Source of the DNA: a virus
Direction: 5' to 3' (one strand)
IMG/VR virus record: IMGVR_UViG_3300020193_000107
Location: 1 to 28,384 of that record
DNA: 28,384 nucleotides
Below the pieces are notes generated by a model. It saw only the letters and a list, made by a program, of their open reading frames with translations. It made no database searches and was not told the DNA's origin. The translations under genes and the position numbers were made by a program. Below, in pieces: positions 900 through 19,980 of the stretch (the stretch's first letter is position 1; every line of letters starts with the position of its first letter).

Positions 900-909
900 T
901 CCGGCCTCT

Positions 910-3155: not shown

Positions 3156-3185
3156 GAGGGTGCGGGCGGTCGCGATGGTCGCCTC

Positions 3186-3365: not shown

Positions 3366-3370
3366 TCGCC

Positions 3371-4600: not shown

Positions 4601-4603
4601 GTC

Positions 4604-4738
4604 TTATCCTCCGACGGCGCGCGGGAGATGCAATGTCACCAGCGCGAGAATTGCGTCGGGGCCGTCGACGATGCCGGCGGCGCGGGCGATCTTCTCGGCG
4701 GTGGGGGTCGGTCGAGGCTGGCTGGCCGCTCTCGCCAT
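4604..4738 (-). CDS. Short 44-aa ORF upstream of coat
   Basis: ATG 4738 opens MARAASQPRPTPTAEKIARA and stops 3 bp before the coat ATG. The spacing and strand suggest co-translation with coat, but the ribosome-binding site is weak (G-rich GGGGGTGCGAG) and the family is unknown. It could be a spurious frame in high-GC DNA. Confidence 0.35.
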   Translation of the reverse strand: MARAASQPRPTPTAEKIARAAGIVDGPDAILALVTLHLPRAVGG

Positions 4739-4896
4739 CTCGCACCCCCCCGGTTTGCGACACGTGACCCGTTCGAGCCGGGTTGCACGAGTCCCCGAGG
4801 GGTTGCTTCGCGTGCTGCCGGGGCGCGAGGCCGGCGCCACTTCGCGCGCTGCGGGGCACAACTCCCGCGCTGCTGCGTGTGCGCGACGATGCACGA

Positions 4897-4924
4897 ATGC
4901 TACAGCAACATGAGTGCTACACAA
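4897..4924 (-). promoter_or_regulatory. Weak candidate promoter ahead of the coat gene
   Basis: The 212-bp gap 4739-4950 between scaffold and the small coat-linked ORF holds no convincing gene. On the minus strand TTGTGT (4919-4924) and TAGCAT (4897-4902) lie 16 bp apart, a partial sigma-70 match. A TGCTACA direct repeat overlaps it. A separate coat promoter would raise coat above portal and terminase, but this is only a candidate. Confidence 0.25.
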
Positions 4925-4950
4925 CAGGTGCCCGCGTCAAGCAAATCTTT

Positions 4951-5763
4951 TTAGAGCCCGAGCGGGTTCTTCTTGAGCCGCTCGATCCGGCGGTTCTTGT
5001 CCCAGGCCATCCACTCGTCGATGGTCATCTTCTCGGGATCTCTGGTCGACGTCGTGGTGGCGCTGACGGGCGCGATCGGGTCCGGGGCGCCGCTGACGCT
5101 TCGGGGCGCCGGAGCGGCGGGGGCCGCGCCGAGCTTCGTCGCCTCGATCTTTCCGAGTTCGCGCCACATCTGCGCGGACGGGAGCTGGCCGATGCGCATG
5201 GCCTCAGCCTGGTTGGAGCCGAGCCAGTACGCGAGCTCGGCGCCCTGCTCGGACGCAAAGATCGCGTCGCGCATCTCCTTCGTGAAGACCGGGCGGTTGA
5301 TGACCTCGTAGACGTCGGCATGCTGCCCGCTCAGGGCCTGGACGCTGGCCGTGAAGGTCTCGGGGGGCGCGGCCTCAGTCGTCGCCCTCTCGGACGGCGT
5401 GCCCGGCGCGGGTGCCGTGTCCCGCTGCCACGCGAGGATCTTGTCCTCATAGGCCACCTGCGCCTGCTGGTATCTGACGGCGTCGACGTAACCCGCGCCA
5501 TCGGTGAACTCGGCGAGGCTCGGCGGCAGCGGGCGCGCGCCGGCGTCGACCTTGCGCTTGAGCGCCGCCAGCTCATGCTCGGCCGCGTCGGCGCGCCGCT
5601 CGGCGTCGCGACGGGCGCGCGTGAGTTCGTCGGCGCGTCGTTTCGCGAGCGTCTCGGTCTCGGGTGAAGGCTCGGCCTCATCGGGCGGGGGCGTGCCGTC
5701 GGCCGGCGCGGGCGTCGGGTTGATCGGCTCGTCGGTGGTCGTCATGTCCTGCGGTGTCGTCAT
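4951..5763 (-). CDS. Capsid scaffolding protein
   Basis: A 270-residue, highly charged protein starting at ATG 5763 behind GGGAGAGGCG. It begins with a disordered Pro/Thr/Glu-rich tail (residues 1-38), then a long coiled coil (AKRRADELTRARRDAERRAD and AALKRKVDAG, about 39-75). The middle has TKEMRDAIFASEQGAELAYW and LGSNQAEAMRIGQLPSAQMW. The C-terminus is basic (IDEWMAWDKNRRIERLKKNP), consistent with the helix-loop-helix that binds coat in P22 scaffold. Position between portal and coat is the standard place for a scaffold gene. Assignment rests on composition, coiled coil and synteny. It would act inside the procapsid and be released on packaging. A second ATG at 5745 is possible. Confidence 0.78.
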   Translation of the reverse strand: MTTPQDMTTTDEPINPTPAPADGTPPPDEAEPSPETETLAKRRADELTRARRDAERRADAAEHELAALKRKVDAGARPLPPSLAEFTDGAGYVDAVRYQQAQVAYEDKILAWQRDTAPAPGTPSERATTEAAPPETFTASVQALSGQHADVYEVINRPVFTKEMRDAIFASEQGAELAYWLGSNQAEAMRIGQLPSAQMWRELGKIEATKLGAAPAAPAPRSVSGAPDPIAPVSATTTSTRDPEKMTIDEWMAWDKNRRIERLKKNPLGL

Positions 5764-5779
5764 CGCCTCTCCCGTTTCG

Positions 5780-7516
5780 TCAGCGCGCGGCCGGGCCGGG
5801 GAGGCGTGACGCGCCGTTCCCGCCCGCGGGTGGGCCCGTGCGCGCGAGCGCGAGCATCTCCTTCGCGACCTCCGCCACCTTCGGCGCGAGTTCGTTGTCG
5901 ACCTGCTCGAAGAGCAGCGGCGCGAGGCCCGGGGCGAGCATCGGCGCGTACTGCATCGACTCGGTGAGCAGGTCGACGTTTTCCTGCCGGCGCGTCGAGT
6001 ACGTGCGCACGTCCGCGACGACGTCGTACTTGCCCAACGTGAGGTCGTTGAGGATCGTCGTCTCGCCCGTCTCGGGCACGGTCACCGCGTAGTTGATGCG
6101 CTCCATGCGGTCCTCGCCCTTTTCGTTGCGCAGCCGCACGATGCGCGCGGTGTCGTAGATCTTCGGGATGAGGTCGATGAGCAGCCGCACGGTCTGGATC
6201 ACCGCGCGCCGGAGATTGTCCGGGAAGTGGTACGTCCCGATCTTCGCGCGCGTCTGCCGGGCGAAGATCGCGCGCGCGGAGCGCTCATACGCCTGCTCGC
6301 CGATCGCGCTCTCGTACATCCCGAGCGTGTCCTTTACGAGGGCGGCCGACATCGTCAGCATGGCTTGGTGGCCCGTGCTCACCTGCGGCGGCGCCTCGCG
6401 CTTCGGGATCACGTTGCCCGTCGGGTCGTAGCGGAGATAGGGCAGGTTCTTCGTATTCGCCTGTCTCCACTCGTCCTCGTATTTGGCGATGCTCTGCGCC
6501 TGGACGATGTACGGCGCCTTCGGCGCGAGGGCGACGGTCTCCGTCGCGGTCGTCCACCAGTAGTTGAACGCGCGCTGGGGGTCTTTGCCGTCGCGGATGA
6601 GCGAGCGCTTGTAGACCTTGCCGTTGACGTTCACGCGGTCGCCGACGGCCTCCACGATCGGGATCTCGCGTCCAGGCCAGTCGCGCTCCTCGAGGATTTG
6701 ATGGCCGGCCATCTTGTACCAGCGGATCGTGTCCGTCTCGACGACGCGCGTCTTCAGGATGCGGAAGCCCTGCGCCGCGAGCACGTCGTGTGTCACGTCC
6801 TTCGTCAGCTCGACGATGCCGATCTGGCCCGACGGGTCTTCGCACTGCGCGATCGTCTTCGTCACGCGCTCTTTCTGGAAGTATTCCGCGATGCGCACCT
6901 TCTTCACTTCGTACCAGAGCGTCCAGTCCTCGCCGCGGCCCTGCCACTCGAAGTCGACGGGTTGGGCGTTGGGGAACTGCGCCGTGAACTCCGATTCCGG
7001 CAGCCAGTCGGTGATGAAGGCGTACATGCCGCGCGGGTCGAGGTAGACGCTGAAGGGGTTCTCGATGCCCTGCAGGCGCAGCTCCTGATCGAAGCTGTCG
7101 TCGCAGTACTGGTTCACGATGCGCCAGTAGCCGAACCCGCCCGCGGCCGCCTGCTCGCCGGCCGTCGCGTAGATCGTCTCGGCGTCGGACAGGTACTCGA
7201 TCTGGCGGATGAGATCCTGAAGGATCGTCGCGGTGGCGAGGTCGCCCTTGTCGTCGACGGGGCGCACCTTCCCTGCGGTACGGTTCTCGCGCTCCTCGTT
7301 CGCGACCTGGGCGAGGAACTTGCGCAGGAGATTCGCCGTCAGGCACGGGCGGCCGTCGAGCTCGCGCTGCCTGCGCGTGTCCTGGTCCCACTGGCCTTCT
7401 TCGACGTTGTAGGCGAACTTGAGATCCTCAAGCGCCGCGGCGCGGATCTCGTCGTCCGCGGTGACGATCATGTGGAAGCGCTCGCGCGCGAGCTCGAGGA
7501 TCTCGTCGTTGGTCAT
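5780..7516 (-). CDS. Portal protein, P22 portal family
   Basis: A 578-residue protein starting at ATG 7516. The N-terminal part carries AYNVEEGQWDQDTRRQRELD and RPCLTANLLRKFLAQVANEE, and the middle NPFSVYLDPRGMYAFITDWL; all resemble P22-like portals that I recognise. The following region has DWPGREIPIVEAVGDRVNVN and RSLIRDGKDPQRAFNYWWTT, and the C-terminal third FARQTRAKIGTYHFPDNLRR and NDLTLGKYDVVADVRTYSTR. It lacks the long helical barrel of P22 gp1 (725 aa). It forms the dodecameric DNA channel at one capsid vertex and docks the terminase encoded just upstream. A GGGAG lies about 11 nt before the ATG, and the ATG overlaps the stop of a 14-codon mini-ORF. Confidence 0.92.
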   Translation of the reverse strand: MTNDEILELARERFHMIVTADDEIRAAALEDLKFAYNVEEGQWDQDTRRQRELDGRPCLTANLLRKFLAQVANEERENRTAGKVRPVDDKGDLATATILQDLIRQIEYLSDAETIYATAGEQAAAGGFGYWRIVNQYCDDSFDQELRLQGIENPFSVYLDPRGMYAFITDWLPESEFTAQFPNAQPVDFEWQGRGEDWTLWYEVKKVRIAEYFQKERVTKTIAQCEDPSGQIGIVELTKDVTHDVLAAQGFRILKTRVVETDTIRWYKMAGHQILEERDWPGREIPIVEAVGDRVNVNGKVYKRSLIRDGKDPQRAFNYWWTTATETVALAPKAPYIVQAQSIAKYEDEWRQANTKNLPYLRYDPTGNVIPKREAPPQVSTGHQAMLTMSAALVKDTLGMYESAIGEQAYERSARAIFARQTRAKIGTYHFPDNLRRAVIQTVRLLIDLIPKIYDTARIVRLRNEKGEDRMERINYAVTVPETGETTILNDLTLGKYDVVADVRTYSTRRQENVDLLTESMQYAPMLAPGLAPLLFEQVDNELAPKVAEVAKEMLALARTGPPAGGNGASRLPGPAAR

Positions 7517-7586
7517 CGTCCGAGCATCTCCCGCAAGAGCGTCGTGGGGTCATTCATGCCCGGACCCACGTCAGCCTCGTCGTCAC
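7513..7586 (-). other. Ladder of two mini-ORFs bridging terminase and portal
   Basis: The 66-bp gap between terL and portal is spanned by two overlapping mini-ORFs. GTG 7586 overlaps the terL stop and encodes 10 codons (VTTRLTWVRA) to TGA 7554. ATG 7557 overlaps that stop and encodes 14 codons (MNDPTTLLREMLGR) to TGA 7513, which overlaps the portal ATG. Ribosomes could stay coupled through the gap. The peptides themselves may have no function. Confidence 0.3.
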
Positions 7587-9118
7587 GCGCTCATCCACGC
7601 CCGCAGGCCCGCCGCCAGCACCGGCTCCGGCCCCCGCCGGCGACGCACCTTGCTGACCAGCGCATCCGGGTGGTAGTACGTCATCGCCAGCGCGTCGGCC
7701 TCGTCCGGGCTGTGCCCGATCTCCGCCTTGATCTTCTTCTTGTCGACGATCTTCACCACGCTGTGCCCCTTGTGCGGCACGTACTCGCAGCGCGTGGCGC
7801 CGAGACCGTTCTTCAGCTCCACGTCGTCGGGGAGGCTGATCGCCCCGCGCTCGAAGGCCTCGCGCAGGCGCCAGTACATCTCGGCCCGCATGTTGTAGAA
7901 GCGCGTCTCGTCGCTCGCCGCCCGGCGCGCGTCGGCCGCTTCCACGATCGCCCCCTTGAGCGCGCGCACGTTGCCCTCGACGGCCCAGCCGATGCCCACG
8001 GTGTCGATGCGCACGACGTCGGGCCGGTCGGCGTCGACGTCGGTGCCGATCCAGCGCTCCAGCGCCTGGCTGTCCGCCGTGCGCAGCCGCTTGAGGGGAA
8101 AGACCTGCGGCCCCCGCCGGGTCGCGATGATCGAGTGGTCGCCGCCCGCCCCGCAGTCGACGGCCTTCACGAGCGGCGTGCCCGCGGGGAGCTCGACCTC
8201 GCGCTCCACCGCGTCCTCGATCCACTCCCACGGTATGAGCGTCTGCTCGTCGACGAGGGGGGGCAGGCCGAGCACGCGGATCCGGTACGGGTTCGAGTCG
8301 CGCCCGTACTTCGCGGCGAGGGCCTCGACGACCGCGGGCTCGACCAGCTCGCAGTCCTCGGCGTTCCAGCGCAGCGCGATGAACCGCCCCCCCGCCTGCT
8401 GCGTCTCCACCGCGTAGCCCGTCGCCCGCGTGGGGTTGAAAATCACCAGCATCACGTTCACCGCGCCCGTCATGTTGCCCTCGAGCGCCTCAAACACGGG
8501 CGGGCGCACCCCCGAGGCCTCGTCGATCACCTGCAGCACGTGCTCCTCGTGGATGCCCGCAAGCCCTTCCACCTGCTCCGACTCGGTCAGCTTCGGGTTC
8601 GCCGCCTTCGGGAACGCCAGCCACCGCTTCCCCCGCGCCTCCTCCGGCACGCTCGCCAGGAATAGCTTGTCGTTCTGCAACACGAACTGATCCCGCAACG
8701 GCGAATACATGAGCCACTTCGCGATCTCCGACCACAACACCTTCGACAACTGGTCGGCCGACACGCTCACACACGGCACCTTCGGGTACGAGAAGCACGA
8801 GAGAAACCATAGAATCGCCCACGCCGCGAACCCGTCCTTGCCGACCCCCTTGCCCGCCATGATCGACACCCCGAGCGTCTCCCGGCGCTCCCCTCGCTCC
8901 TTCGCCGCCACTAACCCCGAAAGCGCCCCCGCCGCCTCCCGCTGCTGCTCCGTCATCCGCAGCGCCGTCCCCTTCGCCCCGTTGTACGGCCCCAGAATCG
9001 CCTCCTCCACGAACCGCCCGAGATCCTCCCGCCACCCCCGCACCACCCGCAGATTCGCCGCATACGCCCTCGCCCCCTCGCGCGCCCCGACCGAGCCCCC
9101 AGAGCCTTGCCCGCCCAT
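7583..9118 (-). CDS. terL: Terminase large subunit (ATPase-nuclease packaging motor)
   Basis: A 511-residue protein starting at ATG 9118. The ATPase domain shows Walker A AGKGVGKD (88-95), Walker B VLQVIDEA (194-201) with catalytic Glu, and a coupling motif in LVIFNPTRA. The RNase H-like nuclease domain starts with VKAVDCGAGGDHSIIATRRG, continues with VVRIDTVGIGWAVEGN and closes with SPDEADALAMTYY, supplying the three acidic metal ligands (D, D, D). It translocates DNA into the procapsid and cuts the concatemer. The small subunit lies 194 bp upstream and the portal just downstream. The ribosome-binding site is poor (GAGGGG 3 nt from ATG), so a slightly different start is possible. Domains appear intact. 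Confidence 0.93.
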   Translation of the reverse strand: MGGQGSGGSVGAREGARAYAANLRVVRGWREDLGRFVEEAILGPYNGAKGTALRMTEQQREAAGALSGLVAAKERGERRETLGVSIMAGKGVGKDGFAAWAILWFLSCFSYPKVPCVSVSADQLSKVLWSEIAKWLMYSPLRDQFVLQNDKLFLASVPEEARGKRWLAFPKAANPKLTESEQVEGLAGIHEEHVLQVIDEASGVRPPVFEALEGNMTGAVNVMLVIFNPTRATGYAVETQQAGGRFIALRWNAEDCELVEPAVVEALAAKYGRDSNPYRIRVLGLPPLVDEQTLIPWEWIEDAVEREVELPAGTPLVKAVDCGAGGDHSIIATRRGPQVFPLKRLRTADSQALERWIGTDVDADRPDVVRIDTVGIGWAVEGNVRALKGAIVEAADARRAASDETRFYNMRAEMYWRLREAFERGAISLPDDVELKNGLGATRCEYVPHKGHSVVKIVDKKKIKAEIGHSPDEADALAMTYYHPDALVSKVRRRRGPEPVLAAGLRAWMSA

Positions 9119-9312
9119 TAGCCCCTCACCCGCTCCAGTCCCATCACCCCCCCCTTTACCCCTCTCCCACGTGAAACCGGGACTGACCTGTCATGAAGCC
9201 AGGACGAGGCCCATGCCCCCGGGGGTCCGAGCCGAGCTCGAGGTTGCGGCCGGCGGTAGCCGACAGCGGGTCCGCGGTCCAAAGGCGTAGTCCAGTGGGG
9301 GCATAGTCTGTA
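9119..9312. other. Gap between small and large terminase genes, no supported gene
   Basis: This stretch of 194 bp is GC-rich and open in several frames. A minus-strand frame ending at 9156 exists but overlaps the small terminase C-terminus and has no ribosome-binding site. I see no convincing hairpin or promoter. Confidence 0.4.
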
Positions 9313-9813
9313 CTATCGGCCCAGGTCAGCATTGGCGGGCACTTGCGCCGCATCGGACCCAGGCATCAGAGCGCCAGCACTACGGGTAGTGGGCCGCGTC
9401 CTGGCGCGGTCGCGTTCGACCCGCTCAATCAGCTCATGAAGAGATAGGTTCTGGGTAGATTGGCCACGTTCCAGCCGTTCGTCAGAGTGCAGCCAGTGAT
9501 GCGTGCCCGCGAGCTGGTAGGGGCTGCTCTTTACGTGGGCGTCCGGTTCGTCGAGCGCGCGGTTCAGGGTGTCGATCACACGCATTCGGGCCGACGTTAA
9601 AATGTTGGCCTGCTGCTCTCGGAACGTGTCGACGTGCTGAGCAGAGAACAGGTGGCGCAGCCCTGACATGCGTTCGTGCGCGGTGGACTTGGCGATGCCG
9701 AAGTAGTCGCCGATCTGCTCCCACGTCGCGCCCGAGTTGAGCATGGCGGCGGCCTTGCTTGGACTCCATCGTCGGCGCCGGAGCCGTTCGCTTGGCCGTT
9801 CGACGGTGCCCAC
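9313..9813 (-). CDS. terS: Probable terminase small subunit (HTH DNA-binding)
   Basis: A 166-residue protein starting at GTG 9813. An N-terminal helix-turn-helix is visible: WSPSKAAAMLNSGATWEQIG followed by DYFGIAKSTAHERMSGLRHL (about 16-55). A central helical part (EQQANILTSARMRVIDTLNR) could oligomerise, and the C-terminal tail is Arg/Pro-rich. It sits first in the late operon, immediately before terL, where terS is expected. Small terminases recognise pac/cos and load the large subunit. No family-specific motif is seen, so the call is HTH plus synteny. A GGAAGA abuts the GTG, an unusually short spacing, so the exact start is uncertain; the first downstream alternative would remove part of the HTH. 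Confidence 0.72.
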   Translation of the reverse strand: MGTVERPSERLRRRRWSPSKAAAMLNSGATWEQIGDYFGIAKSTAHERMSGLRHLFSAQHVDTFREQQANILTSARMRVIDTLNRALDEPDAHVKSSPYQLAGTHHWLHSDERLERGQSTQNLSLHELIERVERDRARTRPTTRSAGALMPGSDAAQVPANADLGR

Positions 9814-9844
9814 TCTTCCGCTTGTAGCACGGCTCCGGCCCGCT

Positions 9845-9996
9845 TGTGAATCTTTTCACACAAAAGCGCAACACTCTATATAGAGAAGAAAGTGTTGCGC
9901 ATTCCTAGAGAGGGCTTCTAAGGCCCTCTCTATAAAGCAGTAATGCGCCCAGCGGTGCGCTAATACCGCGCCGCGTCATTTAGGGGAGTGTTGCGC
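9845..9996. promoter_or_regulatory. Palindrome cluster in the late/early divergent control region
   Basis: Three inverted repeats lie between terS and the plus-strand operon: TGTGAA/TTCACA (9845-9850, 9855-9860); GCGCAACACT/AGTGTTGCGC (9866-9875, 9891-9900), with TATATA between the arms; and AGAGAGGGC/GCCCTCTCT (9907-9915, 9923-9931). A further AGTGTTGCGC is at 9987-9996. The tract is A/T-richer than its surroundings. This looks like operator sites for a phage regulator overlapping the late promoter; no U-tract follows the GC hairpin, so a terminator is less likely. Confidence 0.6.
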
Positions 9997-10052
9997 TTAA
10001 TTTTCCGCGCGGAGCAGAGCTCCCGGCCCGCAACGTCCCTGACGTTTTTCCC

Positions 10053-10081
10053 TTGACACTCCCTCACGGCTATATTATAAG
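10053..10081 (+). promoter_or_regulatory. Strong sigma-70-type promoter of the plus-strand operon
   Basis: TTGACA (10053-10058) is followed by a 17-bp spacer and TATAAG (10076-10081), set in a TATATTATAA stretch. It is the best promoter match in the window and lies 43 bp upstream of the first plus-strand ATG. Confidence 0.85.
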
Positions 10082-10124
10082 GTATGACATAGACGCTACA
10101 AGACGCACTACAGGGGGGCCAGCC

Positions 10125-10280
10125 ATGAGCAAGAAGCTGGTGATCGTGAGGTTACAGTGCCTGCGCTGTGGCCACACATGGGCGCCGCGTAAGCCGGACG
10201 TGGCGCAGTGCCCGAGGTGCCAGAGCCCGCGGTGGGACCAGGCGCGCGAGCCAGGCGCGAGTGAGCCAGGGCGCGAGTGA
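10125..10280 (+). CDS. Small zinc-ribbon protein
   Basis: A 51-residue protein from ATG 10125, preceded by CAGGGGGGCC. Two CxxC knuckles (CLRCGHTWAPRKPDVAQCPR, where CPRC is the second pair) define a rubredoxin-like zinc ribbon, with a basic/acidic tail. The first in-frame candidate, TTG 10053, is the -35 element of the promoter and is rejected. Similar ribbons occur as small phage or antitoxin-associated proteins; no specific function can be given. It is the first gene of the plus-strand operon, so probably expressed early and strongly. Confidence 0.75.
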   Translation: MSKKLVIVRLQCLRCGHTWAPRKPDVAQCPRCQSPRWDQAREPGASEPGRE

Positions 10281-10297
10281 GCGCTAGGGGGGACAAC

Positions 10298-10528
10298 ATG
10301 GAGCGCATCGTGATCTGCCTTGAGGGCGACAGCGAGCAGTGCGTGATCTCAGGCCGCTACTCGCTTGATGAGGGGGAGGGGGCGCGCGACATCGTGATGC
10401 GAGAATTCTTGGACATCAACGACTTCGATGCCCAGGACTACCGCCAGATCGCCGCGCTCGAGATCGGCGGCGAGATCATCTACGGCGGGGGCGCGTTCGC
10501 GCTGTCTGTGCTTCGCCGGGAGGCGTAG
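10298..10528 (+). CDS. Unrecognised 76-aa protein
   Basis: ATG 10298 follows GGGGGG at a good distance (CTAGGGGGGACAAC), which favours it over GTG 10277. The product (MERIVICLEGDSEQCVISGR, later AQDYRQIAALEIGGEIIYGG) is acidic with alternating beta-like strands, no membrane segment and no motif that I know. It lies 17 bp after the zinc-ribbon gene and 12 bp before the next, so it is part of the same transcript. Confidence 0.6.
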   Translation: MERIVICLEGDSEQCVISGRYSLDEGEGARDIVMREFLDINDFDAQDYRQIAALEIGGEIIYGGGAFALSVLRREA

Positions 10529-10540
10529 GGAAAGGACAAC

Positions 10541-11113
10541 ATGACAACGATGAGACCGATGAGACCGTATCGGAAGGCGCGAGGGCGCAGGCCCACCGCC
10601 GCTCAGATCGCCGCCGCCCAGCAGGCGTGGGATGCGCGCGAGGGCACGATCGAGGGGCGGTATCACCGGGGCCAGATCATCGTCGACGCCGCCGGCGACT
10701 ATTGGCGGATCACGCGCCCAGGCCGACGATATCACGAGGATGTCAGCGACCTGATCTATCCGGTCGTGCGTGCGCGCGCGCCTCGCGCGGCGCGGGCGTG
10801 GCGCGATCTGGAGAGCATCGCGGCGACGATCTATGGCCGGCATGACGACGCGGTGCTCGTCGCCGGGGGCGCGCTGCATATCCGGCTGCGCGCGCCCGGA
10901 CTCCTCGCCGGCGGCGACGAACTCGCGGTCGATGGCGATGTCGTGAGCGCATATCACGCACGCTACGACGACGCGCCGCGCACGGGACAGGTGCGCGACG
11001 CCAAGCTCGCGGCTCGCGTGCGCGAGCTGATCGCGCTGCGGCCCACGTGGACTCCGATGGCCCGCGTGCATGTGCGGCCCCAGACGCCAGTCGCGGGCGC
11101 AGGCGAGTCATGA
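10541..11113 (+). CDS. Unrecognised 190-aa basic protein
   Basis: Starts at ATG 10541 behind GGAAAGGACAAC. The N-terminus is basic (MRPYRKARGRRPTAAQIAAA), followed by GQIIVDAAGDYWRITRPGRR and a tyrosine/aspartate-rich centre. The C-terminal part (RVRELIALRPTWTPMARVHV) is helical. No catalytic motif is visible. Its stop overlaps the next start (ATGA at 11110-11113), so the two are probably co-translated. A DNA-binding role is possible from the basic N-terminus but not supported by a motif. Confidence 0.6.
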   Translation: MTTMRPMRPYRKARGRRPTAAQIAAAQQAWDAREGTIEGRYHRGQIIVDAAGDYWRITRPGRRYHEDVSDLIYPVVRARAPRAARAWRDLESIAATIYGRHDDAVLVAGGALHIRLRAPGLLAGGDELAVDGDVVSAYHARYDDAPRTGQVRDAKLAARVRELIALRPTWTPMARVHVRPQTPVAGAGES

Positions 11114-11712
11114 GAGCCCCGGCGGTCTTGCGCGTCCTCGATCCACTTACGCATCCGGCCTACGCGACGGCCGCGCGCGAGCTGGACGACTCGATGCGCG
11201 CGCTCGTCGCACGCCGTGCTAGCACGCCCGAGGATGCCACGGGTGCCATCGCCGCCCTCGACGCCGAGATTGTCGGCCGCGCGTACTGGTATGTGCTGCG
11301 GCCCGATGAGATCGCCCGCGAGATCATCGGCCTACGGCGGCGCATCAGCGTGGCGGAGGCCACGCGCATTCTACTCGCGTGCGGCGAGGCCGGCTACGAC
11401 ATCGCGGGCAACGGCGGCCCAGATCATGCCCTGCGGTATCCCGGCCGCCACGGCTACCCCGAGTATGCGCCGACGCGCGGCGCAGAACGGGACGAGGTGC
11501 TGTGGGCAGCGGCTGAGTGGTGGGCGCACTTCGCGACGAGGCCCATCACGTACATCTCGCTCGGCGATCACCGCGGATATCTCCCTCGGCCGGTCCAGTA
11601 CGATCAGCCGGGGAGCATGCATCCGCGGCAACGGGCAGCGCTCACCATCGGCCCGGAGCCGGACGTGTACATGCGGCAGCATACGCGCCGGCTGCTGGTC
11701 GTTGAGCCGTAG
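11110..11712 (+). CDS. Unrecognised 200-aa protein
   Basis: ATG 11110 overlaps the previous stop (ATGA). The protein contains PLTHPAYATAARELDDSMRA, a Trp/Tyr-rich core (GRAYWYVLRPDEIAREIIG) and AAEWWAHFATRPITYISLGD. Hydrophobic aromatic residues spread evenly suggest a folded soluble protein. I know no family for it. The second gene of a coupled pair; the partner at 10541 may form a complex with it (inference from coupling only). Confidence 0.6.
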   Translation: MRAPAVLRVLDPLTHPAYATAARELDDSMRALVARRASTPEDATGAIAALDAEIVGRAYWYVLRPDEIAREIIGLRRRISVAEATRILLACGEAGYDIAGNGGPDHALRYPGRHGYPEYAPTRGAERDEVLWAAAEWWAHFATRPITYISLGDHRGYLPRPVQYDQPGSMHPRQRAALTIGPEPDVYMRQHTRRLLVVEP

Positions 11713-11723
11713 GAGGAACAACA

Positions 11724-11963
11724 ATGACGACGAAGAGCTGCGAGTGCGGCGTGTGGACGGGCGAAATGTGCGATTGGGCGGGATCGCGAGATGAGACCGT
11801 GGTGATCGAGTACATGCCACCGGATCTGAGGGCGTCGCACGCGGCGGCGCATAACTACGGAGTGTACCCGCACAACGGGGCCGTCCGAGTGCGCGTATCG
11901 CGCGACTGCGCCGATTTGGTCGCGGAGAGCGAGTGGGCGTCGGTCGTCGAGGAGGAGGGCTAG
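11724..11963 (+). CDS. Unrecognised 79-aa protein with N-terminal Cys cluster
   Basis: ATG 11724 sits behind AGGAGGAACAACA, a strong ribosome-binding site. The N-terminus has four cysteines within about 16 residues of each other when the CECG pair is included (KSCECGVWTGEMCDWAG), possibly a metal site. The remainder is acidic (VSRDCADLVAESEWASVVEE). Family unknown; it lies 4 bp before the next gene. Confidence 0.6.
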   Translation: MTTKSCECGVWTGEMCDWAGSRDETVVIEYMPPDLRASHAAAHNYGVYPHNGAVRVRVSRDCADLVAESEWASVVEEEG

Positions 11964-11967
11964 GGCA

Positions 11968-12405
11968 ATGGCTGCGACAACTCTAACCGCGATCATCCGC
12001 GGCCTGCCCGGTACGTATCGCGAGCGCCTGAGCGCGCTCACGGTCGAGCGCGACGCGGACGGTCGATGGTGCGCCATCCTTACCTATGCGCTCGCGCTGC
12101 CGGGCATCGCAGATAGCGAAACCGGGCCGTATAGGATCGCGCTGGATACTCACGATCTCCCGCCTGGGGTCAGAGCCTGGGCGCGCGTGCGTGTGCCAGA
12201 CTCCATCCACGCCCTCGAGATCGATGGCGAGTCGCTCGATCCGCAAGCGGTCGTGGACACCATGTTCCTCGAGCTCGCCGCGCTGGATCTGGGCACGCTC
12301 GATGTCGCGCGCTTCGACTGTGGCGGTGCCCCGCGCTGGGTCGCGAAAACCCACGCCGGGTCGGAGTCGGAGCGCGTGGCGTGGATGCGGAGCATCACCG
12401 GGTAG
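11968..12405 (+). CDS. Unrecognised 145-aa protein, last gene of the plus-strand operon
   Basis: ATG 11968 follows a GAGGAGGGC ribosome-binding site that lies inside the end of the previous gene. Sequence words include IRGLPGTYRERLSALTVERD, LPPGVRAWARVRVPDSIHAL and LGTLDVARFDCGGAPRWVAK; alternating charged strands suggest a beta-rich soluble fold. No family recognised. A strong hairpin begins 16 bp after the stop. Confidence 0.6.
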   Translation: MAATTLTAIIRGLPGTYRERLSALTVERDADGRWCAILTYALALPGIADSETGPYRIALDTHDLPPGVRAWARVRVPDSIHALEIDGESLDPQAVVDTMFLELAALDLGTLDVARFDCGGAPRWVAKTHAGSESERVAWMRSITG

Positions 12406-12420
12406 GTAACCCAGCTCACA

Positions 12421-12463
12421 GCGCCTCGGCCTCCTGACCCAGCAGGAGACTTGGCCGAGGCGC
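12421..12463 (+). terminator. Long hairpin after the plus-strand operon
   Basis: An 11-bp perfect stem GCGCCTCGGCC/GGCCGAGGCGC (12421-12431, 12453-12463) encloses a second 5-bp stem TCCTG/CAGGA (12432-12436, 12443-12447) with a 6-nt loop and a 5-nt bulge. It directly follows the last gene. No U-run follows, so termination would be atypical or factor-dependent; an mRNA-stabilising 3' hairpin is an alternative. Confidence 0.55.
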
Positions 12464-12540
12464 TCGACATGCCATCGGGTGAGCGTCGCGCGCTGGGGGA
12501 TTTGGCAGCCCAGCGTGCCGCGTCTGGTCGCCCCTCTCGA

Positions 12541-12589
12541 ACATGGAGGATTTAGGAGCCGCGAAAAGCCGGGCTTAAATCCTCCATGT
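12541..12589. repeat. 14-bp perfect inverted repeat
   Basis: ACATGGAGGATTTA (12541-12554) and TAAATCCTCCATGT (12576-12589) are perfect inverted copies separated by 21 bp. The right arm contains TAAATCCTCC, which recurs in every unit of the adjoining array, so the two are evolutionarily or functionally linked. Confidence 0.9.
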
Positions 12590-12606
12590 CCTGCCAGCTC
12601 ACCGGG

Positions 12607-12800
12607 GGATTTAGCAGTGAATAGCCGCCGCGCTAAATCCTCCACCCCCCCCATCCGGGTCACATGGAGTGAATAGCCGCCGCGCTAAATCCTCCACCCC
12701 CCCCATCCGGGTCACATGGAGTGAATAGCCGCCGCGCTAAATCCTCCACCCCCCCCCATCCGGGTCACATGGAGTGAATAGCCGCCGCGCTAAATCCTCC
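12607..12800. repeat. Tandem array A, 52/52/53-bp units
   Basis: Units start at 12616, 12668, 12720 and (partial) 12773. Each holds GTGAATAGCCGCCGCGCTAA, then ATCCTCC, a run of 8-9 C, and ATCCGGGTCACATGGA. The first unit is preceded by GGATTTAGC (12607-12615), making a 9-bp inverted repeat with GCTAAATCC (12632-12640). Copies are nearly identical; the length difference is one C in the homopolymer. No protein-coding content is supported. Confidence 0.92.
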
Positions 12801-12929
12801 ACCCTGGGGGGCTAGGGGGCGCGTTCTGGCCTCTGATCCCCCCACCCTGGGGGGCTAGGGGGCGCGTTCTGGCCTCTGATCCCCCCACCCTGGGGGGTTA
12901 GGGGGCGCGTTCTGGCCTCTGATCCCCCC
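12801..12929. repeat. Tandem array B, three 43-bp units
   Basis: Units start at 12801, 12844 and 12887: ACCCTGGGGGGCTAGGGGGC, then GCGTTCTGGCCTCTGAT and a run of C. The third differs by one base (TTAG for CTAG). CCCCCC-ACCCT-GGGGGG across each junction can fold as a hairpin. The array follows array A directly and ends 69 bp before the methyltransferase start. Confidence 0.92.
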
Positions 12930-12998
12930 ATGCTTGGGGTTGTGCCGGCGGCAGAACTGGCAGAACCTTCATGTGCCGCCAGAAAGGTTGGGTTTGTG

Positions 12999-14309: not shown

Positions 14310-14389
14310 GGGGTGTGAAGTAGGTGTGCGGGGCTTGTGAGCATTCACAGGTTGACGTCACACTCAGCGCACACGGGGGTGTGAAGTAG
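14310..14389. repeat. 14-bp direct repeat in the convergent intergenic region
   Basis: GGGGTGTGAAGTAG occurs at 14310-14323 and 14376-14389, 66 bp apart; the second copy is inside the 3' end of the dpdA-like gene. The rest of 14157-14363 between the converging genes holds no supported gene or clear terminator. An 8-bp GTGCGCGC/GCGCGCAC hairpin (14406-14424) falls in the coding end of dpdA. Confidence 0.75.
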
Positions 14390-15206
14390 CTGATTTCATG
14401 ATGGTGTGCGCGCTGTGCGCGCACAGGAGGCTGGTGTCACAATTCCACCCGGCTAGTATCGGCTGCTGTTCCCCCCGGCTGATATGGTCAAGCACTTGCG
14501 CCCTCCACCGCAGCGCGAACCGGACACAATGGTTGCATCGTGTGTGTGTGCAGCCCGCTTCGGCGGGCCGATAGCGGGCCTGCCGACTCCAGGCCATTGA
14601 ATCCGCACTGTCCAGCATGGCGGCGGCGCCGAGCAGCAGCCCCGTGGTCTTTATTCCGAACCCGTGCAGCCGGTAGCCGAGCGTCGCGAGCTGGCGGAGA
14701 ATCGCCCGCCCCTCTTTCGCCCCTTGCCGCCGACACACCGATCCGACACCGACGAGCCTCGTCAGCGGCAACCCAGCGGCTTCATACTGGTCTGCATGGC
14801 GCACATAATCGTGCGGCATCCACCCTTGGAGCACCGGCACCCACGGCAGATCCGGCGCGAGGTCGAGCAGCGTCGCGTAACTCTCCACCGTGCGCCGCTG
14901 ATGCTCGGCCAGTGTCAATCCGGTCTTGGTGAGCATGAAGGGTTCACACATCCAATCTTGGATCGCCGCCCATCGGAGCCCGCCGATCTCGTCCATGTAT
15001 CGACGGACGGCCTTCGCGTAGTCCTGCGGTATCGTCCGCCACTCGCCATACATGCTCAATTCCGAAAACCCTCCTGAGTCAAGCGCCCATGCGCCACGAG
15101 CTCGCGGGAGCGTTCGGCGTGGCCCGAGGATCCGATGCGAGATGAATAGGGGGACATCCAGCAGAGCAAGCCACATGGGGCGATCGGTACCGAGCCAGAA
15201 GTCCAA
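14364..15206 (-). CDS. dpdA: DpdA-like 7-deazaguanine DNA transglycosylase
   Basis: A 280-residue protein starting at TTG 15206, 3 bp after the transporter stop codon and 8 nt behind AACAGG. This start gives MDFWLGTDRPMWLALLDVPLF, which fits DpdA N-termini that I recall; ATG 15176 would lose it. DpdA is a TGT relative that replaces guanine in DNA by preQ0 or related bases. Visible features are ALDSGGFSEL (Asp43, equivalent to the TGT base-binding DSGGF), GVGSVCRRQ (153-161), HGFGIKTTGL (181-190), SADSMAWSRQARY (200-212, a candidate nucleophile Asp202) and a Cys cluster CTHTRCNHC (219-227), a probable zinc site. The upstream gene encodes a queuosine-precursor transporter, strongly supporting the pathway. 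It is the last gene of the early minus-strand operon. The residue roles are inferred from TGT. Confidence 0.85.
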   Translation of the reverse strand: MDFWLGTDRPMWLALLDVPLFISHRILGPRRTLPRARGAWALDSGGFSELSMYGEWRTIPQDYAKAVRRYMDEIGGLRWAAIQDWMCEPFMLTKTGLTLAEHQRRTVESYATLLDLAPDLPWVPVLQGWMPHDYVRHADQYEAAGLPLTRLVGVGSVCRRQGAKEGRAILRQLATLGYRLHGFGIKTTGLLLGAAAMLDSADSMAWSRQARYRPAEAGCTHTRCNHCVRFALRWRAQVLDHISRGEQQPILAGWNCDTSLLCAHSAHTIMKSATSHPRVR

Positions 15207-15208
15207 TA

Positions 15209-15691
15209 TCAGGGCCTGTTGGCCGAGCGCCAGTACCACATCGCGCCTATCGCGAGCAGCGTCATCCATGCCTTGCCGATGATCTGCCCAGGGAGATAGT
15301 CCAGCGACCCGAACGCGAGCGAGAGAAAGAGCGCGCTGTCCACGACGAGGCCGACGGCATTGGACGCCATGACCGCGCCGAGACCGTACCTCTTTCGCAG
15401 CGGCGCGTAGACCGCGAAGTCGGCCAGCTCGGAGACGAGAAACGCGGCACCGGATGCCAGGGCGAACCGTGGCGATAGGACGGCGGACAGCGCGGCGCCA
15501 GCCACGATGCACCAGATCACGATGCGCGGCCCGTGCCGATCATGCGTGAGGTCTCGGAAGGTGAATGCGAGCCCGGCCGCATAGACTCCTGCGGGCGCGA
15601 CGAACCCGAAGCCAACTGGGACGAGGCCGAAGCGGAGGATGAGCGAGTTAGCGACAAACACTGACGCGATGAACAGTAGAGGCCAGATCAT
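15209..15691 (-). CDS. yhhQ: Queuosine precursor (preQ0) transporter, YhhQ/VUT family
   Basis: A 160-residue integral membrane protein starting at ATG 15691, behind AGGAG at 8 nt and overlapping the previous stop by one base (TGATG). It has about five or six hydrophobic segments. Family signatures that I recognise are FRDLTHDRHG (about 45-54), SELADFAVYAPLR (around residue 87) and SNAVGLVVDSALF (around 107). It is shorter than E. coli YhhQ (221 aa), like other compact phage versions. The protein should move preQ0 or preQ1 across the inner membrane. Direct coupling to the dpdA-like gene (2 bp between them) implies that the imported base feeds DNA modification rather than tRNA. No precursor-biosynthesis gene is present in the window. 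Confidence 0.88.
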   Translation of the reverse strand: MIWPLLFIASVFVANSLILRFGLVPVGFGFVAPAGVYAAGLAFTFRDLTHDRHGPRIVIWCIVAGAALSAVLSPRFALASGAAFLVSELADFAVYAPLRKRYGLGAVMASNAVGLVVDSALFLSLAFGSLDYLPGQIIGKAWMTLLAIGAMWYWRSANRP

Positions 15692-16241: not shown

Positions 16242-17090
16242 CTACTCGCATAGGTTGTAGACGCTCATGCAGGCAGGGCCGTCAGGCTCGCGGAAGAGGT
16301 CGCCTTGGGCCTCGGCCAAGCGGATATACGCAAACACGTCGGCCACCGTGGGCACCCGGATCGCGCGACCGTCCTTCGTTATGAACGGCTGCGAACAGTA
16401 GCGTTGCGGGATGTAGTCGGTGCGGAAGAACGACCGATACCCCGCGCCGGGGGTACGCTCTTGCACCACGGCATTGAGCCGAGATTCGAGCTCCATCAGC
16501 CTGGCCTCGATCTCCGGCGTGCGCCGCGCGAGCACGAGCAGCTCCCGCTTATTGACCATGATGCAGGGCCAACAGCCCACGCGCCCGACGCCCATGAGAT
16601 AAAGCGGGTTGGGTTTGACGTTGTGACGCTTGTGAATGGCGAAGACGTCGGCCGCCGTCCAGTGGAATAGCGGGCGCTCGATCCAGTACCCGCCCCCCTT
16701 TTCTTCCCATTGTCGCGATGGCATCGCGGCGCGGGCAGCCGACTCATCGGCCCGGATGCCCTGATATACCGTCGCCTCATCCTCAAGCGACTCCAGATAC
16801 TTCCAGAGCGGTAAGATTTTTAATTCCTCTGTGCAAAAGCGAGCGTGGACCATCGGCACTATCCTGCGACCTAGTACGAGATCGCTAAATCCGTCGTACT
16901 TTTCGCTTTTGAGCACGACGAGTTGACCATCAAGCACCGACTGATTGATCTCCTCCACGTAGGCGTAGGTCAGCGGATGCTCCCAGCCGGTATCGCAGAA
17001 GACCGCCGTGAACGGGATGCCCTGCTCGCGCAGCCACAGGAGCAAGGCCGTCGAGTCCTTCCCGCCTGAGAACGCGGCGACGTGGATCAC
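16242..17090 (-). CDS. PP-loop ATPase, PAPS reductase / DndC-like family
   Basis: A 282-residue protein from GTG 17090, whose GTGA overlaps the stop of the upstream membrane peptide. The PP-loop SGGKDSTALLLW lies at residues 8-19, followed by TAVFCDTGWEHPLTYAYVEE. The family arginine/cysteine region is MVHARFCTEELKILPLWKYL, then YQGIRADESAARAAMPSRQW, PLFHWTAADVFAIHKRHNVK and PLYLMGVGRVGCWPCIM, with a CxxC pair. Such proteins activate a substrate with ATP: PAPS reductases, DndC of DNA phosphorothioation and many phage proteins share this layout. The cysteines may bind an Fe-S cluster or zinc. Substrate unknown. No DndB/D/E partner is visible, so phosphorothioation is not supported; its place near the preQ0 genes makes base tailoring a possible but unproven role. 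Confidence 0.8.
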   Translation of the reverse strand: MIHVAAFSGGKDSTALLLWLREQGIPFTAVFCDTGWEHPLTYAYVEEINQSVLDGQLVVLKSEKYDGFSDLVLGRRIVPMVHARFCTEELKILPLWKYLESLEDEATVYQGIRADESAARAAMPSRQWEEKGGGYWIERPLFHWTAADVFAIHKRHNVKPNPLYLMGVGRVGCWPCIMVNKRELLVLARRTPEIEARLMELESRLNAVVQERTPGAGYRSFFRTDYIPQRYCSQPFITKDGRAIRVPTVADVFAYIRLAEAQGDLFREPDGPACMSVYNLCE

Positions 17091-17194
17091 CGCTGCGCCC
17101 GCCGGGCCATGCGCGCGAGGATCACGAGCTTCCACACGACGCCGGCCAGCAGCGCGACGGTGATGATGGACAGCGCGGCATGGAGCCAGGTCAT
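17087..17194 (-). CDS. 35-aa single-pass membrane peptide
   Basis: ATG 17194 overlaps the methyltransferase stop (ATGA), and its TGA overlaps the PP-loop start. The product MTWLHAALSIITVALLAGVV continues WKLVILARMARRAQR: one hydrophobic helix and a basic C-terminal tail, predicted cytoplasmic. Overlaps on both sides favour a real, coupled gene. Confidence 0.5.
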   Translation of the reverse strand: MTWLHAALSIITVALLAGVVWKLVILARMARRAQR

Positions 17195-19980
17195 GGCGCT
17201 TCTGTGAGCGCCGCCATCAGGCGACGGCCGAGCCATTCGATGACGGGCACCGTCACCGCGTTGCCCATCATGCGGTAGCGCGGCGAGTCGGGGCAGGTGC
17301 AGCGTTCTGCCGCGGCCTCGGGGTCGCGCGCCCAGTCGTCCAGCGGCAGGCAAAGACATGTCCAGCCTATGGGGAAGCCCTGGAGTGCCTCACATTCTGC
17401 GGGAACTAATCTGCGGACTGCGAGAGCGGGCTGTGTTGATTGCGCTTGAACGCTAGCGGATCGCCCCACTTCTTGAATCGCTGATAGTGCTTGTCGCAGT
17501 AGCCGAGCCCCTTCTGCGGGTTCCCACATATCGAGCAAGGAACCATCTTCCGGTGCTGGCGCAGATGGCAGGAGCGGCACAACGCGATGAGGTTCGCTGG
17601 ATCGTTGTTCAGCGAATTCTCGTCGAGATGATGTACGTCGAGACGCTTGCGCGTTGTTCCGCACGCCTCGCACCGGACCGCGCGCTTGATTGTGCGTGCT
17701 CGATACCGCCCCTCCGTCGGGCTCGTTACGGTGATCTTGAACCGGCCCTTGAACCCTTGCGCCATGCACGCCATGTCGCAGAACTTGCGACGGGAGAAAT
17801 GGAGCAAGGACTGAAGCTGCCCGTCGCGCTCCATCCCGCGAATCAATTGCTTCCCGCAGGAGGCGCAAAATCGAATCGGCGTCGGCTTGCGTGGCATCGG
17901 CATACGCATGAATACTAGCCGCGAATCCTTGCATGGTCAAGGCGTCAGACAGATCATTGAACGTGTCAAACGTGGTGATCTGCGTCGTGTCGAAGGCGAT
18001 GGCCGGCGTCCACGGTATCCCGAGGCCGCTGCCGACCTTGAGGGGCGGCGATGTCGCATCGGACGGCGCCTGATCGAGGCTCGTCGTCGGATCGAAACAC
18101 ACCATCGGCACCCCGCGCCCCGTGCCGTCCTCGCTCGCGTCGTGGCCCTCGGCCCGGAGCGTGTGCGTGACGATCAGGTGTCCCGGCTTGGTGTTGCTGT
18201 CCGGCCCCTTCGCGTCGCGCTCGCACAGCGTCGCCGCCACGAGGTTCTCGTCGTCCTCCTGGCGCCGTCCGGGCGCGTTGACCCCGGAGCCGTGCGAGCC
18301 GGAGCTCAAGGTAGCCGCGAGGTGTGGCGCGATGAGCGTGCCTTTGTTCGCGCCGTAGTCCTGCCCCCCGCCGATGCCGCCGAGCGCGCGCGCGATGTCG
18401 ACGCCGATCACGAGGTTGTCGGCATCGGCGGGGGCGGTGCCGGGCCGTCGTGCGCCGCCAGCGCGGTTAGCGCCTGTCGCAATGCTGGCGGCAATTCGCG
18501 CCCCCGCTTCTCCGCTCGCCGCAAGATCCCCGTCGCCGCGCGCGGGCTCAAAAAGTATTTGGGCAACGCGCGCTTCATCAGGACCGCAGACAGCGTCACG
18601 CGCTCGGGACTCGGCCTCTGCGAGAAGAATCCGAGCGCGGTCGCGCCAAGGTTCCTCGACAAAGAGATCATCTGCGAGCGGCTCCAACGAGGCGATACAC
18701 GCCAGCAGCGCGGTCAAACTTAATGATTTCGCGTTCCAGCAGGGCGGGCACGAGCCGGTCCAAGCTGCGGTGAGCACGAAGATGCTCAGCGTCGCCTCGG
18801 CACACGTGCAAATTTGCTGAGGCGTTGTCTGTTTTGACCAAGTTGATATGGTGGACGCGCTCGGCTGGATCCAGAGATCGCCCCAAAGTACGCTCCATGA
18901 CTCGACGGTGTTGTCGCTCTCGTCGTCCGTCGCGGGAGCGCATGATGTAGCCGTCTGACTCAACCCATCCTGTCGGTCGTCGGACGGACACGCCCAGCTT
19001 GACGGCGCGGATGCGGACGCCCGCGCCCGTGCGTCCAAGACGCTGAGCAATCTCGGCCACGCTGATGCTTCCAGCGAGGCGGCGAAGCTCGCCATCCTCC
19101 TTCGTAGTCCAGCGATGGCCGAGGATTGATCGGTCGCACCTCCGCAGTCCCCAGAGACGGTTACGGATCGCGGATCGAGTAACTCCCAGGCGTCGAGCAA
19201 GCTCTGGGCTACGACAGCAGCGAGCGTGACGCTGGAGAAATGCGTCGGCGTCTGGAGTCCATAGTTCGCGTCCACGCCGACGAAGAACAGGCGCCGTCTC
19301 CGTTGCGGCACACCGAACTCCTGCGAGTCGCATTCCTCTACCTCCGTGAGCCATCCGGCCCCATGCAGCGCGTCCAGAACGGCCCCAATGTCCTCGCCTC
19401 CGTTGACGGACAGAAGCCCCGGCACGTTCTCAAGGAGCAAAAAGGGCGGTCGCAGCGCCTTGCCCACTCTGATGATTTCCCAGAAGAGCGCGGTGCGATC
19501 GTCCTTGAGTCCGCGGCGCTTGCCGGCGACGCTGGCGCCTTGGCAGGGGAATCCGGCGACGAGAAGATCCACGGTGCCGAGTCGCCTTTGCCAGTGCGCC
19601 CGCTCTGCGCTTTCAACGGCTGCACGATCGATTCCGGGCGCCCCCGGCCATTCCGCGCGATCCTCGCCTCGAATGCCATGACCGATGGGGGAGGGCCAGA
19701 GTTCAGCGTGAAACTGATGCCCTTCTGAATCCCGAGCCCCGCATTCCGTAGCCGCACCTTCCCCTTGGCATCCGGCGATGGAGTCTTCGCCCGCTGGGCA
19801 TCGGCTTGGATCGAATACACCTCGAACGTCGGTCCATCGCCACACGCCGGGCCATCGGACGCCGAGGACGCGCTGGCAGGCGCGGTCGATCTCGACCTGG
19901 CCGACGCATCGGAATCCGGCGCGCTCGAGGCCGAGGTCGAAGCCGCCGACTCCCGCGAAGAGGCTGAGGAAGCTTGGCAT
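17191..19980 (-). CDS. C5-cytosine DNA methyltransferase frame, interrupted by two HNH genes
   Basis: A continuous 929-codon frame begins at ATG 19980 behind GAAAGGGG. It holds motif I SLFAGVGGFDLGLERAGF (6-23), motif IV AGFPCQGASVAGKRRG with Cys146, motif VI LLLENVPGLL (around 184), motif VIII FGVPQRRRRLFFVG (222-235), target-region words THTLRAEGHDASEDGTGRG and AFDTTQIT, motif IX VRRLVPAECEALQGFPIGW and motif X MMGNAVTVPVIEWLGRRL. The middle contains two HNH endonuclease genes in other frames (18668-19333, 17406-17909), and residues 55-136 are an unusual linker between motifs I and IV. The frame stays open through both, perhaps only because the DNA is GC-rich; translation of those parts looks non-native. 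It may produce one long protein, split polypeptides, or be spliced. Catalytic motifs are intact. Confidence 0.8.
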   Translation of the reverse strand: MPSFLSLFAGVGGFDLGLERAGFRCVGQVEIDRACQRVLGVRWPGVWRWTDVRGVFDPSRCPAGEDSIAGCQGEGAATECGARDSEGHQFHAELWPSPIGHGIRGEDRAEWPGAPGIDRAAVESAERAHWQRRLGTVDLLVAGFPCQGASVAGKRRGLKDDRTALFWEIIRVGKALRPPFLLLENVPGLLSVNGGEDIGAVLDALHGAGWLTEVEECDSQEFGVPQRRRRLFFVGVDANYGLQTPTHFSSVTLAAVVAQSLLDAWELLDPRSVTVSGDCGGATDQSSAIAGLRRRMASFAASLEASAWPRLLSVLDARARASASAPSSWACPSDDRQDGLSQTATSCAPATDDESDNTVESWSVLWGDLWIQPSASTISTWSKQTTPQQICTCAEATLSIFVLTAAWTGSCPPCWNAKSLSLTALLACIASLEPLADDLFVEEPWRDRARILLAEAESRARDAVCGPDEARVAQILFEPARGDGDLAASGEAGARIAASIATGANRAGGARRPGTAPADADNLVIGVDIARALGGIGGGQDYGANKGTLIAPHLAATLSSGSHGSGVNAPGRRQEDDENLVAATLCERDAKGPDSNTKPGHLIVTHTLRAEGHDASEDGTGRGVPMVCFDPTTSLDQAPSDATSPPLKVGSGLGIPWTPAIAFDTTQITTFDTFNDLSDALTMQGFAASIHAYADATQADADSILRLLREAIDSRDGARRAASVLAPFLPSQVLRHGVHGARVQGPVQDHRNEPDGGAVSSTHNQARGPVRGVRNNAQASRRTSSRREFAEQRSSEPHRVVPLLPSAPAPEDGSLLDMWEPAEGARLLRQALSAIQEVGRSASVQAQSTQPALAVRRLVPAECEALQGFPIGWTCLCLPLDDWARDPEAAAERCTCPDSPRYRMMGNAVTVPVIEWLGRRLMAALTEAP
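17406..17909 (-). CDS. HNH homing endonuclease inside the methyltransferase gene (second insertion)
   Basis: A 167-residue protein from ATG 17909 in a different frame from the methyltransferase. Zinc pairs FCASCGKQL and FCDMACMAQG lie at the N-terminus. The HNH core is VRCEACGTTRKRLDVHHLDE followed by NSLNNDPANLIALCRSCHLR, with the H-H...N...H pattern. A C-terminal CSICGNPQKGLGYCDKHYQR is a further zinc knuckle. Its 3' end overlaps the codons for VRRLVPAEC, the conserved motif IX region of the host gene, which is where homing elements commonly insert. The ribosome-binding site is weak. It probably cuts uninterrupted alleles and is selfish DNA. Confidence 0.8.
   Translation of the reverse strand: MRMPMPRKPTPIRFCASCGKQLIRGMERDGQLQSLLHFSRRKFCDMACMAQGFKGRFKITVTSPTEGRYRARTIKRAVRCEACGTTRKRLDVHHLDENSLNNDPANLIALCRSCHLRQHRKMVPCSICGNPQKGLGYCDKHYQRFKKWGDPLAFKRNQHSPLSQSAD
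18408..18671 (-). pseudogene. Out-of-frame methyltransferase-associated segment (LSPRAATGILRRAEKRG)
   Basis: From ATG 18671 (overlapping the HNH stop, ATGA) to TGA 18408 a frame other than that of the methyltransferase encodes 87 residues including SAVLMKRALPKYFLSPRAAT and GILRRAEKRGRELPPALRQA. I recall this conserved segment from phage methyltransferase loci. The same DNA in the methyltransferase frame reads ARVAQILFEPARGDGDLAAS, which also looks family-like. So either two frames are overprinted, or a frameshift near the C5 run at about 18433-18437 separates parts of one ancestral frame. Confidence 0.4.
18668..19333 (-). CDS. HNH homing endonuclease inside the methyltransferase gene (first insertion)
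   Basis: A 221-residue protein from ATG 19333, which has a perfect GGAGGT six bases upstream, itself part of methyltransferase codons. Two Myb/SANT-like DNA-binding repeats are visible: WTPDADAFLQRHARCCRSPE with LARRLGVTRSAIRNRLWGLR, and WTTKEDGELRRLAGSISVAE with IAQRLGRTGAGVRIRAVKLG. The HNH_3-type core is RRVMERTLGRSLDPAERVHH followed by INLVKTDNASANLHV. The first 20 or so codons overlap methyltransferase codons in another frame, up to about 19267, where the methyltransferase resemblance stops. Likely a free-standing homing gene or the ORF of a mobile intron; no intron core was recognised by eye. Confidence 0.8.
   Translation of the reverse strand: MRLAGVRCAATETAPVLRRRGRELWTPDADAFLQRHARCCRSPELARRLGVTRSAIRNRLWGLRRCDRSILGHRWTTKEDGELRRLAGSISVAEIAQRLGRTGAGVRIRAVKLGVSVRRPTGWVESDGYIMRSRDGRRERQHRRVMERTLGRSLDPAERVHHINLVKTDNASANLHVCRGDAEHLRAHRSLDRLVPALLEREIIKFDRAAGVYRLVGAARR
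19572..19820 (-). other. Cryptic out-of-frame methyltransferase target-region segment
   Basis: In a frame other than the methyltransferase's, this stretch reads VYSIQADAQRAKTPSPDAKG, then PPPSVMAFEARIARNGRGRP and ESIVQPLKAQSGRTGKGDSA. Those words resemble the variable target-recognition part of phage Dcm proteins. The limits match the extra 82-residue linker between motifs I and IV of the host gene almost base for base, so this is probably an inserted, out-of-frame fragment of methyltransferase DNA. Confidence 0.55.

Follow-up and report, generated by a model that had tools for sequence, protein, structure and literature searches.

A predicted salvage-only 7-deazaguanine DNA modification cassette in a P22-like temperate phage, and the pairing of phage VUT transporters with exchangeable DpdA-like enzymes

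The closest described systems are found in phages that encode DpdA with or without the genes for preQ0 synthesis. Escherichia phage CAjan (Seuratvirus), and likewise EC151, combines a transporter, a DpdA and full synthesis: in CAjan, folE, queD, queE and queC accompany a DpdA of phrog_887, and a VUT protein of phrog_4899 lies in the same cluster. Deletion of dpdA abolishes dPreQ0 in CAjan DNA (PMC6884629). A third group, the DpdA-only phages (for example Orion and Salmonella phage 7-11), has DpdA without preQ0 synthesis; Hutinet 2019 left the case of 76 such phages open, suggesting host supply or uptake, and observed that YhhQ homologues occur in some phages with no correlation with any group (PMC6884629). 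In bacteria, YhhQ is present in about 9% of dpd islands (PMC11888242). Each part of the system reported here is already known, DpdA without synthesis from the DpdA-only phages and transporter, DpdA and full synthesis together from CAjan. The locus that we analyzed resembles CAjan in carrying a phrog_4899 VUT protein and a DpdA in one cluster, but its DpdA belongs to PF23859/phrog_1279 and no synthesis genes were seen. With the DpdA-only phages it shares a DpdA without preQ0 synthesis, to which, unlike them, it adds a predicted transporter of its own.

The locus lies in a linear virus record of 28,384 bases (GC 0.678, possibly incomplete), hereafter the window. Both genes are on the minus strand, where the initial annotation had placed them: a VUT/YhhQ-type membrane protein of 160 aa (15209..15691; ATG at 15691, stop 15209-15211), the first gene of the cassette, and a DpdA-family transglycosylase of 280 aa (14364..15206; TTG at 15206, stop 14364-14366). 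Only 2 bp (15207..15208, minus strand) separate the stop of the transporter from the start of DpdA, a junction that from its sequence is likely to allow translational coupling. The transporter protein contains SELADFAVYAPLR, and CAGGAGAG lies a few bases 5′ of its ATG. Because both products have strong Pfam and phrog matches, these are not chance ORFs. The pair forms the end of a leftward run of early genes (recombination, integrase, AAA ATPase, methyltransferase, PAPS-reductase-like), as had been proposed, and faces a rightward C5-methyltransferase gene. Pfam profiles detected a P22 coat (E 3.5e-36) and a P22 portal (E 1.9e-147), and the window also encodes Erf and an integrase, in agreement with the earlier view of a P22-like, temperate phage. 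Similarly, the reported lack of folE, queD, queE and queC held: neither these genes nor a CAjan-type cluster of them with dpdA were found among the window genes scanned, in a record that may be incomplete. The window also yielded no QueF and no tRNA or Rfam element. By tblastn, portal and terminase matched distant phages, at no more than 38% and 32%, respectively, among the matches listed. Scans of viral contigs with terminase and portal recovered the same phage from other samples (contigs L174/L179 and L178); these contigs span the structural half alone (window 1-12736 at most), and the cassette half is therefore known from one assembly.

Several neighboring features were recorded alongside. 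Tandem repeats occupy window positions 12616-12804 (52 bp, 3.6 copies) and 12799-12930 (43 bp, 3.1 copies), just before the rightward methyltransferase, and an other-sample contig of the same phage matches the window to 12736, that is, it ends inside these repeats. At one extremity of the record, positions 1-780 hold a 390-bp unit twice, head-to-tail and 96% matching. Just upstream of the cassette, 16242-17135 on the minus strand encodes a PAPS-reductase-like PP-loop protein (phrog_424, PF01507); we considered it as a divergent QueC and rejected it as a member of the cassette (PF06508 E 0.015 versus PAPS_reduct 1.8e-28; no homologue in other VUT loci). A PAPS reductase is also encoded about 5 kb from the VUT-DpdA pair of Rhizobium phage RHph_N3_2. 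Further upstream, a 929-aa C5-methyltransferase ORF (17191-19980, minus strand) has its domain broken into three stretches, and HNH-like ORFs occupy 17406-17909 and 18668-19354 in frames other than its own; it may be an enzyme gene into which homing endonucleases have inserted.

The 280-aa protein matched PF23859 with an E-value of 4.4e-78 (262.6 bits, cut-off 27), with residues 3-256 aligned to positions 5-268 of the 291-position profile, and phrog_1279 with an E-value of 7.7e-86. PF23859 was the sole Pfam family at E ≤ 0.1, and the TGT profile PF01702 did not match. The TTG start is supported, since the Met of ATG-starting relatives aligns with it and the Pfam match opens at residue 3. The protein contains the segments ALDSGGFSEL, GVGSVCRRQ and SADSMAWS, and across 20 relatives D43 (in DSGG), D84, Q127-G128, G153, G155, H181, K186 and D202 (in ADS) are invariant. 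The TGT-like catalytic aspartates and base-pocket glycines (DSGGF, D..CE, VG.GS, ADS) are all present; by motif, we take the aspartates to correspond to D102, D156 and D280 of TGT. An AF2 model reached a pLDDT of 84.5, with very low confidence in the non-conserved tail (residues 248-280). Sequence searches against the PDB returned no related structure; matches came from the fold search alone, in which Foldseek placed the model with TGT (2pot, 2e-7) and with the DNA preQ0 insertase DpdA (7ui4, 1.7e-6), in both cases with probability 1.00 and a TM-score of about 0.5. Cap10 (9ntn) was matched equally (probability 1.00, TM about 0.5). The structure and HMM comparisons suggested for this protein in the initial annotation thus returned a TGT-fold match. 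The best phage matches are mycobacteriophage DpdAs (47-52% identity). Profile and model together assign the protein firmly to the DpdA family, with a TGT fold, and its predicted activity is the insertion of a 7-deazaguanine into DNA.

The upstream protein matched Vut_1 (PF02592; E 3.1e-11, 44.3 bits, cut-off 27.2) and phrog_4899 (E 6.4e-33), which also includes the putative preQ0 transporter of CAjan. Its score for TIGR00697, the NCBIfam equivalog for queuosine precursor transporters, was 34.6 bits against a cut-off of 50.95, and it likewise fell below the PRK11212 cut-off; the putative transporter of CAjan is also below the TIGR00697 cut-off (22.2). The earlier label of a YhhQ-type preQ0 transporter therefore stands in part: the protein is a Vut_1 relative with six predicted helices (AF2 model, pLDDT 92.9), but having missed the TIGR00697 cut-off it is not filed as YhhQ itself. 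Its best fold match in the PDB was the ECF S-component 3p5n_A (E 0.03, probability 1.00, TM 0.58), which makes an S-component-like fold of the model suggestive, not strong. E. coli YhhQ (COG1738) shares with the window VUT group the Vut_1 family, six transmembrane segments and a linkage to Q genes, and is required for preQ0 uptake as judged by an indirect assay (PMC5372724); the window protein differs from it in its length of 160 aa and in its scores below both cut-offs. We found no demonstration in the literature of preQ0 transport by any short (about 160 aa) VUT member, and the short VUT protein is predicted from its family to be an importer of 7-deazaguanine bases.

With the transporter as sole query, blind to DpdA, we screened viral contigs and ran profiles of three DpdA/TGT-like families over all ORFs of the resulting 67 loci. 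A DpdA/TGT-like gene adjoined VUT in 65 of them; the two unpaired loci were a short fragment (L085) and one with a QueC piece alongside (L059). After dereplication into clusters at 90% identity, with loci reached via DpdA left out, the partner was present in 40 of 42 viral clusters (40 of 43 counting MT837598.1), and as a control the transporter query was run on bacterial and archaeal genomes, where 2 of 56 clusters had a partner (Fisher p about 1e-21, with the viral count taken as 40/43). MT837598.1 (L087), deposited as 'Bacteriophage sp.', was rejected as a phage: it is a piece of bacterial chromosome in which glnE-like, hemH-like and grpE-like ORFs flank a Sutterella-like VUT. The two genomic pairs, in the Microvirga alba BT350 assembly (L112 5120-6282) and a Chloroflexia MAG (L101 10016-11136), lie in candidate prophages, which would tie such pairs to known hosts. 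The reverse link is loose: when the window DpdA served as query, 17 viral loci were recovered, and the fetched flanks contained VUT in three. The partners belong to PF23859/phrog_1279, to phrog_15826, annotated as DpdA-like only, or to phrog_887, which includes the CAjan DpdA. These three families are colinear on the key motifs; their profile-profile scores are weak, and we therefore do not claim common descent. Both gene orders occur, as does one divergent pair that is still adjacent (viral contig L028:5206-6447). The VUT tree requires at least 11 changes of partner family and six of arrangement, counts that are rough because resolution is weak, with 43 of its 99 inner branches open.

The same transporter query identified the pair in six named phages, in which VUT adjoins, or lies within about 0.5 kb of, a DpdA/TGT-like gene. 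Sinorhizobium phage phiLM21 has a PF23859 DpdA, as in the window, but there DpdA precedes VUT, whereas Mycobacterium phage StevieRay, Arthrobacter phage Aoka, Pseudanabaena phage Pam5 and Rhizobium phages RHph_N3_2 and RHph_X2_30 have partners from phrog_15826 or phrog_887. The transporter-DpdA unit, singled out earlier for its occurrence in a P22-coat phage, is real but not peculiar to it, recurring in unrelated mycobacterial, Arthrobacter, rhizobial and cyanobacterial phages. The new element is that the phage VUT nearly always has a DpdA for a partner, and that this DpdA is exchangeable. This near-total link of the short VUT family to DpdA-like genes contrasts with the 2019 remark that YhhQ homologues show no correlation. 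Neither the near-obligate link nor the QueF-containing form described below was found in the searchable literature, a scope that leaves out most subscription journals.

Evidence on the cargo came from gene neighborhoods. In 46 of 80 genome loci, queC lies within 3 kb of the cellular VUT relative, and queF lies beside VUT in Rubrobacter L094, L119 and L170; the VUT of L094 is among the closest relatives (66%). The L170 genome has a TGT and no QueC match, as does Roseiflexus G049. Furthermore, in three lineages of cassettes a QueF/QueF-L-like gene encoding a protein of 108-110 aa lies between VUT and DpdA: in Aoka, which differs from the window by this extra gene (gp39, annotated as hypothetical; L091:6480-6809), and in the metagenomic viruses L021/L022 (L021:6686-7015) and L032 (6462-6785). 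The best NCBIfam match of these proteins is QueF-II, below its cut-off. The L032 protein retains C-P-x5-D-type and H-E motifs; no clear NADPH motif of the QueF type is seen, which makes it possible that such proteins have QueF-L activity and make the archaeosine base. Since QueF enzymes act on preQ0, these neighbors favor preQ0 as the most likely cargo, with preQ1 possible. An overlapping variant of import followed by insertion into DNA holds that the cargo is queuine, preQ1 or another purine and that the inserted base is not preQ0. COG1738 is indeed heterogeneous, with subfamilies that may prefer preQ0, preQ1 or queuine (PMC5372724), and the DpdA of some phages, nt-1 for one, is a promiscuous enzyme (PMC6884629). 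The occurrence of QueF-like, preQ0-acting enzymes inside three cassettes of this kind and next to the nearest cellular VUT, together with the frequent proximity of queC, the maker of preQ0, renders this variant rather unlikely, though worth keeping in view.

Synthesis genes are rare across the family. Among 50 viral records with VUT, QueC was matched in one (L059) and QueD in none, and control genomes matched as expected; all of these records but L059 and L087 carry the pair, and many are fragments. The named phages were searched whole, and no QueC or QueD was found in the records of phiLM21, StevieRay, Aoka, Pam5, RHph_N3_2 or RHph_X2_30. In bacterial genomes the pair was found just twice, in Microvirga alba and in the Chloroflexia MAG; both also have queC and tgt, and import is therefore not strictly needed there. 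M. smegmatis, by comparison, has none of the Q genes (PMC6884629). Hosts thus do not in general lack preQ0, and the importer may top up or replace the host supply. Proposed at the outset from the window alone, the minimal salvage-only reading gains support from the near-obligate viral adjacency of VUT and DpdA, the cellular linkage to queC and queF, and the QueF-like genes within cassettes.

We therefore regard it as probable that VUT and DpdA together constitute a salvage-only 7-deazaguanine DNA-modification cassette that acts through import, insertion into phage DNA and protection. Both would be expressed together with the early genes, and through VUT the infected cell would take up a 7-deazaguanine base present in the medium, most likely preQ0. 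Before packaging, DpdA would exchange guanine in phage DNA for the imported base by TGT-type transglycosylation, and the modified virion DNA would resist G-recognizing restriction enzymes. In a preQ0-making host the importer would add to the existing supply, whereas in one that makes none, such as M. smegmatis, modification would hang on environmental base. Of two tested phages that bear DpdA without synthesis genes, Orion is unmodified and 7-11 has trace dADG only (PMC6884629), a point against the activity predicted for the window-type DpdA; the unmodified DNA of Orion in its preQ0-less host fits a need for an importer.

The target could instead be tRNA, in which case the pair would raise the level of queuosine-type modification in the tRNA of the infected host. 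The window-DpdA family is indeed named 'queuine tRNA-ribosyltransferase' in PHROGs and in many phage records, its fold is that of TGT, and infected cells already handle Q precursors in many hosts. Nevertheless, the Pfam family that the protein matched is DpdA rather than tRNA TGT, 37 of 38 sampled bacteria bearing the cellular transporter have their own TGT, and M. smegmatis, the host of StevieRay-type phages with the pair, has no Q genes (PMC6884629) and therefore no downstream tRNA pathway, all of which makes a tRNA target improbable. Slightly less probable again is that DpdA uses host-made preQ0 while the transporter is a lysogenic-conversion gene for salvage of Q precursors by the host, their adjacency reflecting shared regulation. 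The phage is temperate, as its integrase indicates, and DpdA can work without VUT, since 14 of the 17 DpdA loci have none within the fetched flanks. Against this, the dependence is one-sided: the 40 paired viral clusters involve three divergent DpdA families in varied arrangements, and a host-benefit gene would need no DpdA partner every time. Finally, decay or inactivity of the pair in the window phage, for which the TTG start and the non-conserved, low-confidence tail of DpdA might be cited, is very improbable given that both frames are intact, all family-invariant residues are kept and both genes show coding-type codon-position GC.

Salvage by import and insertion, as preferred here, bears on the largest group of DpdA phages, which has no preQ0 synthesis genes and for which whether and how the DNA is modified was left open in 2019. 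In phages the transporter almost never occurs without a DpdA-like partner, which offers a testable answer for part of this group, namely import of the base. Such phages are predicted to become modified and restriction-resistant once preQ0 is in the medium. More tentatively, and at somewhat less than even chance, the cassette may be a modular one in phages of unrelated hosts, combining a small VUT importer with any available DpdA-like inserter and sometimes a QueF-like enzyme, so that modification and restriction resistance would depend on 7-deazaguanine bases that other microbes release into the environment.
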